Below are positions 21,980 through 30,959 of a stretch of 64,000 nucleotides of DNA, piece by piece. The stretch lies in NCBI RefSeq assembly GCF_014200675.1, contig NZ_JACHCI010000006.1, positions 1 to 64,000 on the forward strand, read 5' to 3'. Position 1 is the stretch's first letter. Every line of letters starts with the position of its first letter. The stretch is from Janthinobacterium saanense (GTDB lineage Bacteria > Pseudomonadota > Gammaproteobacteria > Burkholderiales > Burkholderiaceae_D). A model generated the notes under the pieces. The model worked only from the letters and a program-made list of their open reading frames with translations. It was not told the DNA's origin and did no database searches. Made by a program: the position numbers and the translations under genes.

Positions 21980-23008
21980 CTAAAGCAAGGAATCCCTGAC
22001 GACGCCGCGAGCTGCCATCGCGCGTTTGAGTTTGATCAGCGCTTCCTGCTGGATCTGGCGCACGCGTTCGCGCGTCACGCCCATTTCTTCGGCCAGGGTT
22101 TCCAGCGTGGCCGGATCGTCGTTGTCCAGGCCGAAGCGGCGCATGATGACGATACGCTGCTTGTCGGGCAGCTTGGTCAGCCAGTCGCGCACCAGCACCG
22201 TCATTTCATGGTGTTCGGCGCGCGCATCGGGGCTGTCTTCGGCGGCGCCGGGCAGCATGTCCATCAGGGACGACTGGGGATCGTTGTCGAGCGGGGCGTC
22301 GAGCGAGGTGGCGTGTTCGGACAGGGCCAGGATATCCTGCACTTCTTCCACCGGGCGGCCGACCAGGTGGGCGATGTCTTCGGCGGTGGCGTCCTTGCCG
22401 TCGTGGTGCTGCGCTTCGAGATGGTATTTGCCGCGCAGAATCTGGTTCAGTTCGCGCACCATGTGCACCGGCAGGCGCACGGTGCGGGCCTGGTTCATGA
22501 TGGCGCGCTCGATGCTCTGGCGTATCCACCAGGTGGCGTAGGTAGAGAAACGGAAACCGCGCTCGGGCTCGAACTTGTCGATGGCCCGCATCAGGCCGAT
22601 ATTGCCCTCTTCTATCATGTCGAGCAAGACCACGCCGCGGTTGATGTAATGCTTGGCAATCGACACGACCAGGCGCAGGTTGTGCTCGATCATGATTTGC
22701 CGGGCTTCAAAATTGCCCTGCTTGGCGAGGGTGGCGTAATGCACCTCTTGCGGCGCCGTCAGCAAGGGCCGCGTGCCGATCTGGTTCAGATAGTGCTGGG
22801 TGGTATCGGTCGAGAGCTCGGCCGCCAGCACTTTTTTCAATTCATCGACACTTTCAACCAGCACGCTGACGCTGGCAGCTTCACTGCCCTCGCCAGCCTC
22901 GACGGCATCGATACCGTCTTCGCCTACATCTTCCGTCACGATGTCGTCCGCGCCCTCTTCCGGCGGATCCGTTTCATCGTCCAGCTGGTCATGCGGCGCG
23001 TGTGTCAT
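21980..23008 (-). CDS. rpoS: RNA polymerase sigma factor RpoS
   Basis: Stationary-phase/general stress sigma factor, 342 aa. An acidic N-terminus (about 1-50) is followed by region 1.2 ([20 protein letters not shown]), region 2 ([47 protein letters not shown]), region 3 and region 4 ([20 protein letters not shown]). The nlpD stop lies 8 bp upstream, the standard nlpD-rpoS arrangement; in E. coli the main rpoS promoter lies inside nlpD. The end of the gene has no obvious U-rich terminator. Confidence 0.97.
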
Positions 23009-23016
23009 TGCTTTAC

Positions 23017-23958
23017 CTAACGGTTAGGCAGGAATTTCGAAGGATCGACAGGTTTACCTTGTTGCCGGATTTCAAAGTGCAGCTTCACGCGGTCCGCATC
23101 GGAATCGCCCATTTCAGCGATCGTCTGGCCCTTGGTGACATTCTGCCCTTCCTTCACCAGGATGCTGCGGTTATGCGCATAAGCCGACAATAAACTATTA
23201 CTGTGCTTCACGATAACAAGATTACCATAACCACGGATTCCACTCCCGGCATACATGACTTTTCCTGCACCCGCTGCCACCACCGGCTGGCCGGCCTTGC
23301 CGGCGATGTCGACGCCCTTGTTCTTGCCTTCGTCAAAAGTAGCGATGACCTTGCCTTCGGTAGGCCAGATCCAGCCTATCTTGTCGTCGCCAGCGGACTG
23401 CGCCGCAGACGCCGCTGCGGCTGGCACTGGCGCGGCGGCCACGACGGCCGGTGCCGGCGTGGTGGCCGCCGCCGAGGCCGGCTTGGCGGCAGGCGCATCG
23501 CCATCGGCGCGCAGCTCAGCCAGGGTAGCATCGGAATAGGGACGCTTCTCGCCGCGCGGACCGGTTTTCTTTTGCACCGCCGGCGTCGCCGGGCGCGTTT
23601 CTATCGGTGGCGCCATCACGACAGCCGAGGTCTGGGCGCCGCCCGTGTCGCCATTTGGCGGCAGCACGCGCAGCACCTGGTCCACCTTGATGTCGTTCGG
23701 ATTGCTCAAATCATTCCACGTCACCAGATCGCGGTAATTCTGTCCATGCTCGAGGGCGATGCGCAACAGGGTATCGCCGCGCTTGACCGTGTAGAAGGCG
23801 GGGTCGCGATCCCGGCCATCGTTGGCCGCCGCAGTATTGGTCGTTGTCGGCTGACGCTCCACCACCGGCGCCTGGACACCGGTGGTGCCGCAGCCGCTGA
23901 GGATGGCAGCCAAGGTGATGCTGCCTATGAGTAGCTTACTTTTCTTAATCATTCGCAT
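23017..23958 (-). CDS. nlpD: NlpD-type LysM/M23 murein hydrolase activator
   Basis: Outer-membrane lipoprotein that activates AmiC-type amidases in daughter-cell separation; 313 aa. The lipobox is ILSGCGT (Cys23). A LysM domain follows ([20 protein letters not shown], about 57-100), then an Ala/Pro linker and a degenerate M23 domain (about 195-313). The catalytic HxH of true M23 peptidases is not visible ([20 protein letters not shown] has single His residues), consistent with an activator. An in-frame ATG at 23952 (MIKKSK) is also possible. Confidence 0.93.
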
Positions 23959-23994
23959 GTAATTGTATGTCCTGCTTGCTATCCGATCCGGGGA

Positions 23995-24840
23995 TCATAT
24001 GGTGCCCGGGCGCAAAGGCACGAAATGGCAATCTTCCAGGGTCTGGCTGGTCCATTCCATCTTCGCCACCCGGGTAATCAATTGTAAATGCTGCAATTTG
24101 GCGCCTACCGGCGCGACCAGACGCCCGCCTATCGTCAGCTGTTCCAACAAGGCATGCGGCACTTCCAGGCCGGCTGCGGCAAGGATGATCCCGTCAAAGG
24201 GCGCCGCCTGCGGCAGGCCTAGCATACCATCTCCGTACTGCAAACGCAGATTCGACACGCGCAGCGGCCGCAGATTGGACTTCGCCAGCTCATGCAGCGG
24301 CTTGATGCGCTCGATCGAAAACACGTCTTTTGCCACCTGCGACAGCACGGCCGCCTGGTAGCCGCAGCCGGTGCCGATCTCCAGCACCCGCAGCAGCGGC
24401 TTCCCCTGGCGCATGGCTTCGATCATGCGGGCAACGATGTAGGGCTGGGAAATCGTCTGGTGATGGCCGATCGGCAGCGAGGCGTCGATATACGCTTGCG
24501 AAGCCAGCGCCTCATCCATGAACAGATGGCGCGGCACGGCCAGCATGGCGTCCAGCACGACATGATCGTGCACGCCCTGCTTTTCGATGCGGGCCACCAT
24601 GGCGCGCCGCACGGCTTCGGAGACCAGCGGGTTTTGCCGCGACGGCGCTAACGCTGATGCCGGCGCCCGCTCATGCCCCGGTCCCTGCACACTGCGGCCC
24701 GCGCTTTGCGCCGCATTCTGCGTCGCCGTCTGTGGCGTGGCCACGCGCGATTGCGCCAGCGACTGCGCCCCGCCCTGCCGGGCAGGCTTGCCGGCCAGCG
24801 AGTCCAGGGTCAGGGGAAAGTTGCGCGGCTTGTCGCTCAT
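23995..24840 (-). CDS. pcm: Protein-L-isoaspartate O-methyltransferase
   Basis: Repairs isoaspartyl residues in aged proteins using SAM; 281 aa. The catalytic part begins near residue 70 and has the SAM motif [15 protein letters not shown] and [18 protein letters not shown]. The first 60-70 residues are a Gln/Ala/Ser-rich low-complexity extension not found in the typical 210-aa enzyme. The ATG overlaps the surE stop (ATGA), so surE-pcm-nlpD-rpoS reads as one unit, as in many proteobacteria. Confidence 0.94.
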
Positions 24841-25574
24841 GCCAGCCCTTTTGCCAAGGCATCGAGTTCGCTGTGGTGTGTCAAGTCGATCTGTAGCGGC
24901 GTGATCGATACCTGCCCTTGTGACACGGCGTGAAAATCCGTGCCGGGTCCGCTTTCCCTGACCACGCCGACGGGACCGATCCAGAAGATTTCGCGTCCGC
25001 GCGGGTCGAGCGCGCGTATCACCGGTTCGGCCGAATGGCGCCGGCCCAGGCGGGTGGCGACCGTGCCACGCAATTGTTCGTAGGGGATGGCGGGAATGTT
25101 GACGTTCAGCAAATATGGCTGCTGCAAGTCGTCAAAGCGGCGCTCGACGATCTCCCTGGCCACGCGCGCGGCGGCGTCCAGATTGGCCCAGCCATACTCG
25201 GCTTGCGAAAAAGCGATGGCCGGGATGCCGAACAGATAGCCTTCCGTGGCGGCCGCCACGGTGCCCGAATACAGGGTGTCATCGCCCATATTGGGGCCGT
25301 TGTTGATGCCGGACACCACCAGGTCGGGCCGCTCCTGCAGCAAGCCCGTCAGCGCCACGTGCACGCAATCGGTGGGCGTGCCATTCACATAATAAAAGCC
25401 ATTGGCTGCCTTGTGCAGCGACAAAGGCCGGTCCAGCGACAGCGAGTTCGAAGCGCCGGAGCGGTTGCTGTCGGGCGCAACCACCACCACTTCGGCGATA
25501 GCCGCCAGTGCATCGGCCAGGGCTTGCAAGCCGGGTGCGAGGTAGCCATCGTCGTTACTGATAAGAATTCTCAT
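24837..25574 (-). CDS. surE: 5'/3'-nucleotidase SurE
   Basis: Stationary-phase survival phosphatase acting on nucleoside monophosphates, 245 aa. The metal-binding N-terminus [15 protein letters not shown] has the diagnostic [22 protein letters not shown] and [20 protein letters not shown] complete the active site. First gene of the surE-pcm-nlpD-rpoS run; its ATG lies 72 bp past the stop of the TPR ATPase on the same strand. Confidence 0.96.
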
Positions 25575-25646
25575 AACGAGATTTTACCTGAAGCAATGCC
25601 CCCGCTGCGCGTACGGAACAGCCTTATTTGATATTGTTGACACTGC

Positions 25647-28088
25647 TTAGCGCTGTTCTATGCGCGCCTCCGACAGCGCCCCCTCCAGCGCCAGCACCTC
25701 GTCTTCCTGCAAGGCCAGCAAGGCCGGCAGGTCGCCCTGCAGTTTGTACATTCTTTTCAGCTGGGCCATGCCGCGCTTGCGCAGCCTGCCCGGCACGCCG
25801 GGACGCAGCAAACAAGACTTCAAATGCTCGACCAGCTCACCGGCCTGATGGTATTGCTCGCGCTCTATCATGCCCTGCAACATGCCTATCATGCCTTCGA
25901 GCGTATCGGGTTCCGTGGCGCGCGCGGCCAGGATGGTTTCCTGCAGCCGACGCGCGCCATTGAGCATGCTTTCTTCCTGCGCGCGGGGCGCGCCGCCGCT
26001 GCGGCCGTTCAGCAACCGGTCACTGCCGCTGAGCACGGCGTCTTCCAGCAGGCGTGCCGCCTCGCTCTCGCCCTGCTGCTGCAAGGTGCCGGCCAGTTGT
26101 TTTTTACTGTGCAAGGTATCCAGGTGGTCCTCGCCCAGCAGGCGCGCATGCACTTCCAGCACTTGCTCCTGCACGCTGCGGGCGGCATTGAGGTCGCCAC
26201 GGCGCAGCAGGGCCTCGGCCAGCTTGCGTTGGCTCAGCAAGGTTTCCGGATGATCGAGGCCCAGGGTGCGCTCGCGCGCCGCCACCTGGTTTTCATGCAG
26301 CAGGCGCGCGCCTGCCCAGTCGCCCTGGCCTGCCAGCACTTCGGCCAGGCGGTCGCGCGTGGCCAGAGTGGCCGCATGGTCCGGCCCCAGGCGCCGCTCC
26401 TGCACCTGCAAGACCGCATCCAGCAATTGCCGCGCGCCCTCGAAGTCAGCCTGGCGCAGCAGGATTTGCGCCAGCGTCAGCTTGCTGTGCAGGGTATCGC
26501 CATGCTCGGCGCCGAACAGGCGCGCGCGCGCCGTCACTACCATATCGAGCACGGCCTGCGCTTGCGGCAAGCAGTCCATCTGCAGCAAGGTCAGCGCACG
26601 GCTATCCATGGCACCCAGGGTCAAGGGATGTTCGGTGCCCAGCAACTGGAGGTAGCTGGCCAGCACCACATCCTGCAAGTGCAGCGCCCCGGCATGGTCG
26701 TGCTGCAACACCAGCGTTTGCGCCAGGCAAGCCTTGGCAGCCAGGGTATCGGGATGCTCGCTGCCTTGCAGGCGGGCGCGCGTGCTGACCACATCTTCAT
26801 CGAGGAAGCGCGCCTCGTCGAGCTTGCCCAGCTGGCGCAGCAAGCGCGCCATGCCGCTCTTGGCGGCCAGGGTATCAACATGTTCCTCGCCCAGTATGCG
26901 CACGCGGATCTCGACGCTTTGCCGCATTGCATCGAGCGCCTGCGCCATGCGGCCATCTTTCCGGTACAGCTCGCCCAAACGCCCCAGGTCGCGCGCCAGC
27001 GGCAAGGCCACGGCCCGCCCGGGCTCGAGCAGCAAGGCATTGTGCGCTTCATTGATGGCGGCCAGCAAATGGATTTCACGGCTCGATTGCCATGGAAAGT
27101 AGCCACCCGTCAGCCAGTGCAAAAACGCTTCGAAGGTACGCGTCAGCGAGAAACGGTCGCCGCCCTGGTCTATGCGCACGGCCAGTTGCTCGCCATAGGC
27201 AAAGGTCTTGGTCTGCTGCAATTGCACTTCATCAAAATAACTGTCGAGCGAGATCTGCGGCAAGCCATAGGAAACGCGCAGCAGGCGCTCGAACATGGGC
27301 TGGAAGCCGGCGATGCTCTTTTGCGCATCGCCACGGCGCCACTCGGCCCGCTGGGCGCCATCGCCCATTTCGATGCGCGACGGCAGCGGGTACACCAGCA
27401 GCGGCCGCTGCTCATCTTCATGGCTGCGGCGGTATTCGATGGCCCGCGTGACCAGCGCGTCGACGCCTTCCAGGCTTTGCCGGTTCGGCGTGAACACCAC
27501 TACCAGTTTTTTTGGCAGCAAGGTGGTGCAGATGCCGGCGCTGTCGGTGCGCCCCGTGCGCGAATCGACCAGCACGTAGCGGAAATGCGCGGCCAGGGTA
27601 TCGGCAAAGCAGCGGAACAGGGCCGGGCAGGCATCGAATAACTGATCCCAGCGCATCTGCGCCAGGCGCTCGCTGTAGCTGGCGTCGAAACGCCCCGCCC
27701 GCATCAGGTACAAGGGACTGCCCTCATCCACCCGCACCACGTATTGCTGCCAGTCGATGGCGTCGAGCACGCGCTGGGCCAGCGCCTCGTCGTCGGCATG
27801 CCGGCTTGCCGGCTCAAGGCGGAAACGTTCCAGTTGCTGGCGGCAGGCTTCGAAAAACTCCAGCACGCCGGGCCGTTCTTCGTGCTGCTCGAAATAATGG
27901 TGCAAGCCGGGCGCTTCCATGTCCCAGTCCAGCATCAGTACCGGCACGCTGGCGTTTTCACGGCGCGCCAGCAGCACGGCGATATTCGACAGCGCCATGG
28001 TGCGGCCGGTACCCCCTTTGTAGGAATAAAAGGTGACCACTTCGCCAGGCGCGGTCAGTGGCGGCAGAGAAAGACGTTGGCATTCCAT
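25647..28088 (-). CDS. ParA/MinD-like KGGTGRT ATPase fused to kinesin-light-chain-type TPRs
   Basis: 813 aa. The N-terminal SIMIBI ATPase opens with VVTFYSYKGGTGRTMALSN: a deviant Walker A with Lys24 kept but Arg29 replacing the P-loop Lys. Then come LMLDWDMEAPGLHHYF and a Walker B-like VLVDSRTGRTDSAG near residue 175. After a spacer, about residues 360-700 carry seven roughly 42-residue repeats with an LGxDHxxTL core (TPR_10/12 type), and a helical C-terminus follows. The architecture resembles FxsT-type proteins of actinobacterial FxSxx-COOH systems and KGGVGR-variant ATPases. It starts 21 bp after a TIR gene (AGGGA 7 nt before the ATG), so the two form one operon. Function unknown. Confidence 0.85.
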   Translation of the reverse strand: MECQRLSLPPLTAPGEVVTFYSYKGGTGRTMALSNIAVLLARRENASVPVLMLDWDMEAPGLHHYFEQHEERPGVLEFFEACRQQLERFRLEPASRHADDEALAQRVLDAIDWQQYVVRVDEGSPLYLMRAGRFDASYSERLAQMRWDQLFDACPALFRCFADTLAAHFRYVLVDSRTGRTDSAGICTTLLPKKLVVVFTPNRQSLEGVDALVTRAIEYRRSHEDEQRPLLVYPLPSRIEMGDGAQRAEWRRGDAQKSIAGFQPMFERLLRVSYGLPQISLDSYFDEVQLQQTKTFAYGEQLAVRIDQGGDRFSLTRTFEAFLHWLTGGYFPWQSSREIHLLAAINEAHNALLLEPGRAVALPLARDLGRLGELYRKDGRMAQALDAMRQSVEIRVRILGEEHVDTLAAKSGMARLLRQLGKLDEARFLDEDVVSTRARLQGSEHPDTLAAKACLAQTLVLQHDHAGALHLQDVVLASYLQLLGTEHPLTLGAMDSRALTLLQMDCLPQAQAVLDMVVTARARLFGAEHGDTLHSKLTLAQILLRQADFEGARQLLDAVLQVQERRLGPDHAATLATRDRLAEVLAGQGDWAGARLLHENQVAARERTLGLDHPETLLSQRKLAEALLRRGDLNAARSVQEQVLEVHARLLGEDHLDTLHSKKQLAGTLQQQGESEAARLLEDAVLSGSDRLLNGRSGGAPRAQEESMLNGARRLQETILAARATEPDTLEGMIGMLQGMIEREQYHQAGELVEHLKSCLLRPGVPGRLRKRGMAQLKRMYKLQGDLPALLALQEDEVLALEGALSEARIEQR

Positions 28089-28109
28089 GACAGTTCCCTT
28101 TTGCGTGGA

Positions 28110-28715
28110 TTAACGTGGAAAGTGCGGCGGCGGAACGGTGCGCCATACCGGCGGCATATCGGGCATCACGAAACGGCTGCAATCGTGGCCAGGGGGAGTC
28201 GAACGCTTGAGCAAGTGGTAGTGCGTGGCAATACGCTGCACGATCCGTTCGATATCGGGCAGGTATTGGGGATTCGATTTCAGGTCGCCGCTGGCCAGGG
28301 TGTAGCCGGAGAAATCGACATACAGGCCAGGACCGGTAATTTGCGCGGGCAGCCCGTCGGGATGACGCGTCATGATGATGGGAATGATCAAATGACTGGG
28401 CAGCTCATACCAGACGCGGCGTTCCTGTTCGATCAGCTGCATGGCGGCGAACTCGCGCCGCGTGTAGCCATGCGCCTCGTATTTGGGCGTGTACAGCACG
28501 ATCATGCACACGCTTTCACACATGGCGCGCGCCACGCGCCGGTCCAGGTCGTCGCCGCCGCCCAGTTGTTCACTATCGATGAACAGGGCGTCTTCGCGGT
28601 CCAGGTGTGGTTCCAGATAGCAAGCCAGCGCCTCGATCAAGTCATTCTTGAACTTGTTCATGTAAGCATACTGTCCATGCGCATAGCTCAAGAAACAGCC
28701 GTAGCGGATATCCAT
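28110..28715 (-). CDS. TIR-domain protein (FxsC-like)
   Basis: 201 aa from the ATG at 28715, supported by AGGAGG 7 nt upstream. The TIR fold opens with CFLSYAHGQYAYMNKFKNDL. It has LFIDSEQLGGGDDLDRRVAR in the BB-loop/alpha-C region, then CMIVLYTPKYE and YTRREFAAM, where Glu88 is at the position of the NADase catalytic Glu in active TIR domains. The C-terminus (about 130-201) is unassigned. The partner gene directly downstream encodes a KGGTGRT-TPR ATPase. It could act as an NAD-cleaving effector or as a scaffold; the sequence does not decide this. Confidence 0.85.
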   Translation of the reverse strand: MDIRYGCFLSYAHGQYAYMNKFKNDLIEALACYLEPHLDREDALFIDSEQLGGGDDLDRRVARAMCESVCMIVLYTPKYEAHGYTRREFAAMQLIEQERRVWYELPSHLIIPIIMTRHPDGLPAQITGPGLYVDFSGYTLASGDLKSNPQYLPDIERIVQRIATHYHLLKRSTPPGHDCSRFVMPDMPPVWRTVPPPHFPR

Positions 28716-28809
28716 GGCATCCCCTCCTGTTTCCCGTGCCACTCTCGCCATTGCCACATGCTGATATGGCAAGACATGAATCCACTCTAAACCGCTGAGC
28801 ACGCGCCCA

Positions 28810-28825
28810 TTTGCGCTGGCGCAAA
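28810..28825. promoter_or_regulatory. Palindrome upstream of the TIR/ATPase operon
   Basis: TTTGCGCTGGCGCAAA: 7-bp arms with a 2-bp centre, 95 bp before the TIR start codon in an otherwise featureless 160-bp gap. A protein-binding site or small hairpin is possible; no promoter boxes are convincing. Confidence 0.4.
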
Positions 28826-28876: not shown

Positions 28877-28914
28877 AAAAGAAAAATGGCTGGCGCAACT
28901 ACGCCAGCCATTTT
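28877..28914 (-). terminator. Terminator of the dinG-family helicase gene
   Basis: A 13-bp stem (28883-28895 with 28902-28914) around a 6-nt loop, followed on the minus strand by TTTTTCTTTTCC. It begins 2 bp past the helicase stop and insulates the TIR operon from upstream transcription. Confidence 0.92.
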
Positions 28915-28916
28915 GA

Positions 28917-30959
28917 TCAGCCCGCCTTGGGCGGCAGGTTGCGGAAGAACTCCACCACTTCGGCCGTATCGCGCGTGCGCTTGAACGGCGGCAGGCTTTG
29001 CCAGATGCGTTTGCCGTAAGGCTTGGAAATAATGCGCGGGTCGCAAATCATCAGCACGCCACGGTCGCCCTCGTCGCGTATCAAACGGCCGGCGCCCTGC
29101 TTCAGGTTAATGATCGCTTCCGGCAAAGAATGATGCATGAAGCCATTCTTGCCCTGCTTTTCCATCACTTCGATGCGTGCCGCCAGCACCGGATCGTCGG
29201 GCGGCGCGAACGGCAGCTTGTCGATGATCACCAGCGACAGCGCGTCGCCGCGCACATCGACGCCTTCCCAGAAGCTCTGGCTGCCGATCAGCACGCCATT
29301 GCCGGCTGCGCGGAACTGGTCCAGCAATTCGGTGCGGCCCCGGTCGCCCTGCACGAACAGCGGAAAATTCAGGCCGCGCTGCTTGAATTCTTCCGTCAGG
29401 CGCTCGGCGGCCCGCTTGACGGCGCGCAAGGTGGTGCACAGGAAAAAGGTGCGTCCACCGGCCGCCTCGATAATCGGCAAGGCGCAATCGATGACGGCGT
29501 CCGTGTAGCCCATGGAATTGGGCTGCGGTAAATTCTGCGGCACGAACAGCAAGCCTTGCTCGGCATAGTCGAATGGCGATGGCCAGGTGTGCGACGGTTC
29601 GCCCTCCAGGCCCATCTGTTCCGAAAAATGCTTGAAGTCGTTTTTGACGGCCAGCGTGGCGGACGTGAAAATCCAGCTGCGCGGCGAGCCTTCGCGCTGA
29701 TTGTTGAAGATCGGTGCGATCGACAGCGGGGTCTTGTGCAATTGCAAGGAACTGGAAAACGCTTCCACCCAGAACACGGCTTCTTCGCCGACGGCCACCT
29801 TGGCCTTGGGGTCGAATTTCCAGCTGCTCAGCTGCTGCGCCAGCTCCACGCCACGCACCCGAACCTGTTCCAGCGTTTCGGCCCGTTCCGCCTGGCTTTC
29901 CAGCACGGCCACCATGCCGTCGAGCTCATCCTTGAGCGTTTCCAGCGCGGGGAAGAAGTCGCTCGAGGCAGCGATTTGCGGCAGCGACAGGCGCACGATA
30001 TCTTGCGGGAAGGTCAAACGCAGGTCGCGCGCGGCTTTTTCCACCACCGTCACGGTCTTGGCCCAGTCGATGCCGCGCGCATGCGCCAGGCCTTCGGCCA
30101 GCACGTCGCGGCATAGTTCCAGGATTTGCGAGGTCGAGACTGTATTGCCAAAGAACAGGGTCGCCGTATCGGGCAGCTGGTGCGCCTCATCGAAGATGAT
30201 GGTGTTGGCCGACGGCAGCAACTCGGCCACGCCCGTGTCTTTCAGGGCCACGTCGGCAAAGAACAGATGGTGGTTGACCACCACCACGTCCGCCTGCTGG
30301 GCTTCCTTGCGGGCCTTCATGACGAAACAGTCCTGGTAGTACTGGCACTCGGCGCCCATGCAGGTGTCGCGCGTGGACGTCACCAGATTCCAGATCATGG
30401 CGTTCTCTGGCACCTTGGCCAGTTCGGCCTTGTCGCCCGTATTGGTCATTTTCAGGAAACGCGAAATCTCGCGCAAATGGCCCACGTCGTCGCGCGAGGT
30501 CATGCGGCCGTTTTGCAAAGTGCGTTCCAGATGGTAATGGCACAGATAGTTCGAACGGCCCTTCAGCAGGGCTACCGAGACGGGCGCCTGCAAGGCGGCG
30601 CGCACGGTCGGTATGTCACGCAGGAACAATTGATCCTGCAAGTTCTTGGTTCCCGTCGAGACGATGGTCTTGCCGCCCCACATCAGGGCCGGCACCAGAT
30701 AAGCAAAAGTCTTGCCCGTGCCCGTGCCCGCCTCGGCCATCAAGGTGGTCTGGCCATCGATGGCGTTGGCAATCGCCTTGGCCATTTCAGTCTGCGAACG
30801 GCGTGGCTTGTAGCTGCCCACGGCAGGACCCAGCGGGCCGCCGGCGCCGAACAGGCGCTCGATATCGGCATCGTGCTTGCCCGGCACCGCCATGGCCTCG
30901 GCGGGTACGTCGGCAGCGATGCTGTCTTGGTTAGCAGGCAATAAATTGTGATCGGTCAA
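28917..30959 (-). CDS. DinG/YoaA-family Fe-S ATP-dependent DNA helicase
   Basis: Superfamily 2 XPD-like 5'-3' helicase, 680 aa. Walker A is AEAGTGTGKTFAYL and the Walker B box DEAHQL. Four cysteines between them (NYLC, TCMGAEC, QDC) match the XPD-type iron-sulfur cluster. C-terminal motifs include FWEGVDVRGDALSLVIIDKLPF and QGAGRLIRD. The frame begins with TTG at 30959 and no clear ribosome site; an ATG at 30893 (MAVPGKHDAD) is an equally good start. It ends in a strong terminator. Confidence 0.92.
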   Translation of the reverse strand: MTDHNLLPANQDSIAADVPAEAMAVPGKHDADIERLFGAGGPLGPAVGSYKPRRSQTEMAKAIANAIDGQTTLMAEAGTGTGKTFAYLVPALMWGGKTIVSTGTKNLQDQLFLRDIPTVRAALQAPVSVALLKGRSNYLCHYHLERTLQNGRMTSRDDVGHLREISRFLKMTNTGDKAELAKVPENAMIWNLVTSTRDTCMGAECQYYQDCFVMKARKEAQQADVVVVNHHLFFADVALKDTGVAELLPSANTIIFDEAHQLPDTATLFFGNTVSTSQILELCRDVLAEGLAHARGIDWAKTVTVVEKAARDLRLTFPQDIVRLSLPQIAASSDFFPALETLKDELDGMVAVLESQAERAETLEQVRVRGVELAQQLSSWKFDPKAKVAVGEEAVFWVEAFSSSLQLHKTPLSIAPIFNNQREGSPRSWIFTSATLAVKNDFKHFSEQMGLEGEPSHTWPSPFDYAEQGLLFVPQNLPQPNSMGYTDAVIDCALPIIEAAGGRTFFLCTTLRAVKRAAERLTEEFKQRGLNFPLFVQGDRGRTELLDQFRAAGNGVLIGSQSFWEGVDVRGDALSLVIIDKLPFAPPDDPVLAARIEVMEKQGKNGFMHHSLPEAIINLKQGAGRLIRDEGDRGVLMICDPRIISKPYGKRIWQSLPPFKRTRDTAEVVEFFRNLPPKAG

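Follow-up and report, generated by a model that had tools for sequence, protein, structure and literature searches.

Bacterial TIR genes have usually been studied as patchy, mobile components of defence, and TIR proteins of the BtTir and TcpB type have NADase activity. Passages of PMC7188309 attribute NADase activity to Brucella BtpA and BtpB, and in passages of Kaur et al. (PMC7159879) MinD/ParA-like domains stand where conflict systems carry their effector and are predicted to be inactive. Two further points of reference are the KGGVGR-motif ATPases (NCBIfam NF047398) and the FxsC and FxsT proteins of the actinobacterial FxSxx-COOH systems. Here, we analyze a TIR gene and the adjoining gene for a KGGVGR-type ParA-like ATPase with TPRs, found in 64,000 nucleotides of Janthinobacterium saanense DNA (assembly GCF_014200675.1, contig NZ_JACHCI010000006.1, positions 1 to 64,000 of the forward strand; hereafter, the window). 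The two genes are chromosomally fixed and apparently vertically inherited, and the TIR gene is preceded by a conserved promoter-like footprint.

A TIR–ATPase gene pair fixed ahead of surE

Both genes were confirmed as open reading frames at the coordinates listed in Table 1, co-directional and 21 bp apart, as a preliminary description of the sequence had them. Its domain assignments also hold: the TIR protein exceeds the gathering cut-off of Pfam TIR_2 (PF13676; 33.9 bits, cut-off 28), the partner exceeds the curated cut-off of AAA_KGGVGR (NF047398; 126 bits, cut-off 90) and matches TPR_10 and TPR_12, its repeats being most like those of kinesin light chain, and the flanking genes pass the family cut-offs as SurE and as the DinG-family helicase YoaA. 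In a first survey, the TIR gene was present in 33 of 37 genomes of the same genus and in none of 24 genomes of other families. A survey of the family found it in 163 of 392 genomes, with 229 lacking a match and partial or split matches in G261, G284, and G395. A profile built from 28 TIR relatives matched 2 of 398 genomes sampled across the phylum, both from the same family. The 72,556 plasmid records searched gave no match, and no match in viral contigs was confirmed.

For a closer comparison we assembled 80 loci, comprising the window, 21 loci from named genomes (19 from Janthinobacterium, one from a Rugamonas metagenome-assembled genome, and one from Massilia), and 19 and 39 further loci, with a 10-base record set aside and L203 excluded as a second copy of the L080 genome; these loci are mutually related, and counts across them are not independent. 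The partner gene lies 7 to 195 bp 3′ of the TIR gene in 79 of the 80 loci, which supports the conclusion that the two genes belong together. Janthinobacterium sp. FT58W (L058, 8001-9403) has retained the TIR gene and lost the ATPase gene; surE begins 62 bp past the TIR stop codon and the final TIR residues are unlike those of other relatives, making this a natural single-gene strain. Wherever the sequence reaches surE (77/77 loci, from Janthinobacterium and four further genera), surE directly follows the pair, after 38 to 481 bp in 76 loci and 1811 bp in L219 (median 94). The upstream side is more loosely documented: yoaA is in view in 52 of the 80 loci, 12 of them with a yoaA–TIR gap of more than 500 bp, and was not found in some 5 kb of upstream sequence at L077, L079, and L089, the other 25 loci lacking yoaA being covered for 568 to 1088 upstream bases.

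On a tree built from four proteins (SurE, Pcm, RpoS, and YoaA), 39 carriers fall into one group (support 0.72) that also contains 4 non-carriers (L094 to L097), sister to Janthinobacterium, with 14 other non-carriers outside; the tree covers neither carriers L079 and L089 nor the 39 later loci. Empty sites are visible in three of the four, where surE follows yoaA after 84, 58, and 130 bp, and the contig of L095 begins too late. One gain and one lineage loss is the simplest reading of this tree. In the outgroup L099, which lacks the pair, a divergent PIG3-type quinone oxidoreductase gene (best match, under the cut-off) stands between yoaA and surE, and a relative of it occurs within 3 kb upstream of the TIR gene in 14 of the 41 loci whose upstream sequence extends for 1.5 kb or more, and in none of the 20 Janthinobacterium loci, window included. 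By this comparison the oxidoreductase gene is an old neighbour of the TIR gene. Because of the L099 arrangement and the 14 carriers, the pair probably entered between the oxidoreductase gene and surE, as an old insertion.

The preliminary description had taken the pair for an inserted cargo unit. Read as mobile or recent DNA, this does not survive: the distribution, the constant site, the tree, and the lack of plasmid matches and of confirmed viral ones speak against it. Presence at this site in all related genera, which the preliminary description had named as counting against its own proposal, proved true for most of the genus (36 of 40 genomes, before surE) but not for the family, where carriers are confined to 5 of 44 genera.

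Constraint on the TIR protein and its partner

The possible catalytic glutamate of the preliminary description, Glu88, is correctly numbered (sequence context YTPKYEAHGYTRRE). Glutamate fills this slot in 28 of 28 aligned relatives and in all 80 loci, and in the 28 relatives E88 and the adjoining YTPKYExHxYTRRE block vary little or not at all. In the profile alignment E88 pairs with the Glu of WPARE (4c7m, 4lzp, 4lqc) and of WTEYE (7uxr), through weak matches to the solved structures (E 0.33 to 1.1). The aromatic slot four residues N-terminal of it (Y84) holds Tyr in 77 loci, Phe in 2, and Asn in 1, and Trp in none. The C-terminal extension (28110-28260, residues ~152-201) carries a conserved H-x-C..F..P...P..WR-like pattern in the same 28 relatives. 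Ratios of nonsynonymous to synonymous substitution rates (dN/dS) were calculated as pairwise Nei–Gojobori medians in five groups of 13, 9, 7, 5, and 6 loci, dropping pairs outside dS 0.05 to 1.5. The TIR medians are 0.07 in Janthinobacterium and 0.09 to 0.16 in the four other groups; because of these values and the glutamate common to all loci, we read the TIR protein as the constrained half of the pair.

The partner has a different record. Residues 1-345 were modelled with a ParA/MinD-type fold (predicted local distance difference test, pLDDT, 68.7; predicted template modelling score 0.73), and the best Foldseek matches of the model are tyrosine-kinase, ParA, MinD, McdA, and BcsQ chains (E 1e-7 to 1e-5, TM-score at most 0.57). 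Of the 79 partner genes, 41 encode an intact P-loop (19/19 Janthinobacterium, the one Rugamonas, and 21/24 of genus g64) and 38 a degenerate one (g28 4/4, g35 9/9, g42 21/21, g64 3/24, and Massilia TS11), where KGGTGRT is replaced by sequences such as ESGTARS, EGGPARN, or DSAPVRS; the motif, degenerate in all sampled loci of three genera and in some of a fourth, may have been lost more than once. In five g64 loci (L079, L089, L188, L190, and L196) the partner is only about 350 residues long, which leaves no room for the TPRs, as judged from protein length rather than from a domain scan. The ATPase-TPR frame of L219 is interrupted and its TPR part resumes in another frame, through either decay or assembly error.

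Median dN/dS of the ATPase domain is lowest in Janthinobacterium (0.07), higher in the g64 loci that keep the P-loop (0.25), and higher still where the P-loop is broken (0.30 to 0.37); the TPRs, at 0.17 to 0.49, are the fastest part in four of the five groups. Judged by these ratios, the ATPase domain is relaxed yet under purifying selection where the P-loop is broken. Because of this persisting selection, we infer that the partner is still functional, with a function that would not need ATP hydrolysis in the lineages with degenerate P-loops.

Promoter-like sequences and neighbouring genes

An inverted repeat followed by a −10-like box precedes the TIR gene (Table 1). On the minus strand (28825-28810) the repeat reads TTTGCGCCAGCGCAAA, and its exact form occurs once in the window. 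All 80 loci have TTG-N8-CAA followed by TA.A.T or a close variant, at a spacing of 21 bases in 59 and 22 in 21, in surroundings that are poorly conserved (mean identity 35% over 25 aligned loci). In simulated sequence the repeat arises by chance at a rate of 5.5% per sequence (41 loci), a figure that, as the loci are related, gives support and not a P value. Class II promoters activated by CRP/FNR proteins have the dyad centred near −41, upstream of the −10 box. The dyad here is centred about 40 bases ahead of the inferred transcription start, and TTG-N8-CAA is what we take to be an FNR/NnrR/FixK-like pattern; the geometry of the footprint thus fits a CRP/FNR-type class II activated promoter, at which binding of such a regulator is predicted. 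The promoter probably belongs to the TIR module, because none of the three visible empty sites shows the repeat and the box together; in L096 a TTG-N8-CAA stands alone, with no box after it.

Allowing one mismatch to the repeat, a genome search returned 24 sites, versus 2 for the reversed control. One such copy (L166:2227, G000:C19) lies 124 bp before the type VI secretion gene tssF (575 bits for TssF), with a divergent open reading frame on its other side; a shared regulator is possible.

A lead on regulation comes from passages of Haack et al. (PMC5080296), in which Jab_2c19720, a "TIR domain containing protein" of the core genome except in strain Marseille, shows a drop of 2.29 log units when the quorum-sensing synthase for JAI-1 is mutated in strain HH01, in cells entering stationary phase, and is assigned the motif TTGAN6/7TCAA. 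TTGA-N6-TCAA shares the frame of TTG-N8-CAA, and the core distribution given in those passages fits the window TIR gene; genome G000 has a single TIR_2 match. The two may be the same gene, which makes this a lead only. In our literature search the word KGGVGR occurred in no paper, and for FxsC and FxsT the 20 of 48 matches listed were unrelated abbreviations. The pair is not characterised in the passages of PMC8195603, PMC8565338, PMC3566124, and PMC7159879 that the search covered, a limited result from which absence from print is not claimed.

Read along the minus strand, yoaA is followed by a terminator-like hairpin, the TIR gene, the ATPase-TPR gene, surE, pcm, nlpD, and rpoS (nlpD being a best match only, at 225 bits, below its cut-off of 311). 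The preliminary description had the pair isolated by a terminator, which is true on the yoaA side but not towards surE: in the stretch from the ATPase gene to surE, the terminator scan found no terminator-like site on the minus strand. Of 77 carriers, 72 have the sequence GTAAAAT no more than 60 bp from the surE start, as do 10 of the 18 non-carriers, a conservation by which surE appears to keep a promoter-like box of its own. The visible flanking genes are household genes, as seen without a systematic scan for defence islands.

Table 1. Coordinates of the features discussed, in window positions
Feature	Positions	Strand	Basis
yoaA (flank), DinG-family helicase	28917..30959	-	NF053712, 876 bits versus cut-off 680
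Terminator-like hairpin 3′ of yoaA, 14 pairs then T-rich	28883..28914	-	Terminator scan
Inverted repeat TTTGCGC-N2-GCGCAAA, candidate activator site	28810..28825	.	TTG-N8-CAA in 80/80 loci
−10-like box TAGAGT, 21 bases past the inverted repeat	28784..28789	-	Spacing kept across loci
GGAGGGG, ribosome-binding site ahead of the TIR start codon	28721..28727	-	Sequence
TIR protein gene, 201 amino acids	28110..28715 (stop included)	-	ATG at 28715; orthologues in 163/392 family genomes
E88 codon, candidate catalytic Glu	28452..28454	-	E in 80/80 aligned loci; aligned by profile with TIRs of known structure
KGGVGR-type ParA-like ATPase with TPRs, 813 amino acids	25647..28088	-	Family matches and model
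P-loop KGGTGRT, residues 24-30, intact in the window	27999..28019	-	Sequence; degenerate in 38/79 orthologues
Kinesin-light-chain-type TPR region, residues ~366-690	26019..26993	-	Domain matches
Promoter-like GGTAAAAT directly before surE	25581..25588	-	GTAAAAT conservation
surE (flank), first gene of surE-pcm-nlpD-rpoS	24837..25574	-	SurE match over family cut-off
pcm, nlpD, rpoS, 3′ of surE	21980..24840	-	PRK00312 and PRK05657 over cut-off

Proposed mechanism, rival explanations, and known systems

The reading that we favour, whose probability we place a little short of even, has a chromosomally fixed TIR enzyme that probably acts on NAD, a ParA-like scaffold that tunes it, and an activator that turns it on in response to density or stress. 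The TIR protein would be the effector, cleaving NAD+ or making an NAD+-derived signal through E88; the KGGVGR ParA-like protein would bind it through the TPRs or the ATPase fold and serve as both sensor and scaffold. Nucleotide switching may have been the original control and would no longer be needed at roughly half of the loci sampled, the partner persisting there as a pseudo-ATPase, and transcription would start from a promoter activated by a CRP/FNR-type dimer at TTG-N8-CAA. The module might then serve a regulated response to density, to oxygen or nitrogen oxides, or to stationary-phase stress, and not only abortive infection by phages; such a role seems likely because of the household-like conservation and the adjoining stationary-phase genes surE-pcm-nlpD-rpoS.

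Several results count against this reading. The structure model of the TIR protein is poor (pLDDT 59), and its best matches to TIR chains, at Z of about 8, are equalled by unrelated folds. The exact JAI-1 motif TTGAN6/7TCAA occurs upstream of the TIR gene in 0 of 80 loci. No regulon can be read from the near-matches to the repeat, because 20 of the 24 fall within predicted open reading frames of at least 90 amino acids, and codon usage may account for the excess. Relaxation of the ATPase domain in g64 loci with intact P-loops comes near the level of broken ones and is therefore not tied to P-loop loss alone, and the fast-evolving TPRs would also suit a sensor in an arms race. Finally, shared transcription with rpoS as the key to function is weakened by the conserved box of surE in carriers and in some non-carriers; because surE has this box, control of rpoS by the TIR promoter is not supported.

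A rapidly changing sensor is what an anti-phage system of the abortive-infection type would have, and the pair could be such a system fixed in the clade, with the ATPase-TPR protein sensing the invader and unleashing the TIR NADase. In its favour, conflict systems use these domain types, the ATPase has a match in PDC-M28B, a candidate family of PADLOC, and plasmid relatives of the ATPase lie near caspase, EAD10, SIR2, and FRG genes. A system of this kind sits poorly with a gene pair that is nearly universal in the genus, keeps one site among household genes, has no TIR copy found on plasmids or confirmed in viral contigs, and retains its partner gene even in the 38 of 79 loci whose P-loop has degenerated; we judge it unlikely, though well short of negligible. 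It is less probable still that the TIR protein is a non-enzymatic adaptor, positioned by the ParA-like/TPR partner as in polar or envelope landmark systems and having no part in NAD chemistry. The ParA/MinD fold, TPRs of a kind that binds cargo in kinesin light chain, the dispensable ATPase motif, and an aromatic slot that is never Trp would all agree with an adaptor, whereas a glutamate kept in all loci within a near-invariant block is what an active site would show.

The preliminary description had likened the pair to FxsC and FxsT, and a proteobacterial branch of the FxSxx-COOH system with its peptide genes elsewhere would account for the best NCBIfam match of the TIR protein (FxsC_Nterm, E 9e-10) and for the match of the partner to FxSxx_TPR (E 2e-47). 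This kinship is largely refuted and we regard it as very improbable. The scores fall far under the curated cut-offs (38.7 bits versus 130 and 162 versus 300), the best stretch of the partner lies within the TPRs, and FxsC exceeded its cut-off in 0 of 299 Pseudomonadota genomes. The radical SAM protein FxsB, of a kind that the preliminary description had not seen here either, reached 34.4 bits at best in the genome, versus a cut-off of 370. A genome search for FxSxx-COOH precursor peptides gave no match, and its positive control was equally silent. Thoeris was also rejected, with ThcB4 at 16 of 220 bits the only match, no PADLOC Thoeris match at 0.1, and yoaA, the ATPase gene, and surE as neighbours in place of a ThsA-type gene; the TIR protein matched no PADLOC family at 0.001.

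Set against described proteins, the window TIR protein resembles BtTir (7uxr) and Brucella TcpB (4c7m, 4lzp, 4lqc) in its TIR core and in the glutamate that the profile alignment places in the catalytic slot, and differs in having Tyr or Phe for the Trp four residues before it and a conserved C-terminal extension to about residue 201. The similarity to FxsC is a weak one in the TIR domain, and that to FxsT lies in the TPRs of the partner. PDC-M28B is matched in the P-loop region (50.7 bits), the best stretch covering 58 residues of a 438-position model. The ATPase is alike to other KGGVGR-motif ATPases in exceeding the family cut-off, in its ParA/MinD-type fold, and in the KGG-x-GR P-loop of the window protein; it is unlike them in standing beside a TIR protein rather than being fused to one, in being vertically fixed, and in the P-loop decay described above. 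KGGVGR ATPases pass the cut-off in 36 of the 299 Pseudomonadota genomes; inspection of these by eye for TIR_2 within 2 kb recovered, among the matches listed, the pair itself, G077, and besides these only G484:C92.

The same two domain types are joined in WP_331375610.1 of a Sinorhizobium chiapasense plasmid (KGGVGR ATPase, 4-187; TIR_2, 324-445), which differs from the pair in being a plasmid-borne fusion near other TIR genes with no TPR match at 0.001; three annotated TIR genes lie within about 7 kb of that plasmid (L143:1-7199), in what looks like a cluster of conflict genes. A KGGVGR ATPase on a Pseudanabaena plasmid carries EAD10 and an NPHP3-type nucleoside triphosphatase domain near a caspase gene, and other plasmid-borne ones adjoin helix-turn-helix, MqsA-type, FRG, or SIR2 genes. 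Relatives fused to TIR, or to EAD10 near a caspase gene, lend substance to the preliminary view of an uncharacterised signalling or conflict-type module.

The pair bears on whether TIR chemistry serves normal bacterial physiology, and a clade-fixed TIR protein with a conserved promoter and a partner apparently shifting from ATPase to pseudo-ATPase is a testable case of an immune-type module becoming household machinery. The clade is experimentally tractable, as it includes Janthinobacterium, known for its antifungal effects, in which gene deletions have been achieved according to passages of PMC5080296. The degenerate P-loops of the partner parallel the MinD/ParA-like domains predicted to be inactive in the passages of Kaur et al. 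(PMC7159879). It is possible, if somewhat doubtful, that domestication has made an immune-type TIR cassette part of the core physiology of this clade, as an NAD-acting module with a dedicated activator and a pseudo-ATPase regulator; it would then be a bacterial counterpart of the non-immune control of NAD exerted by SARM1-like proteins.

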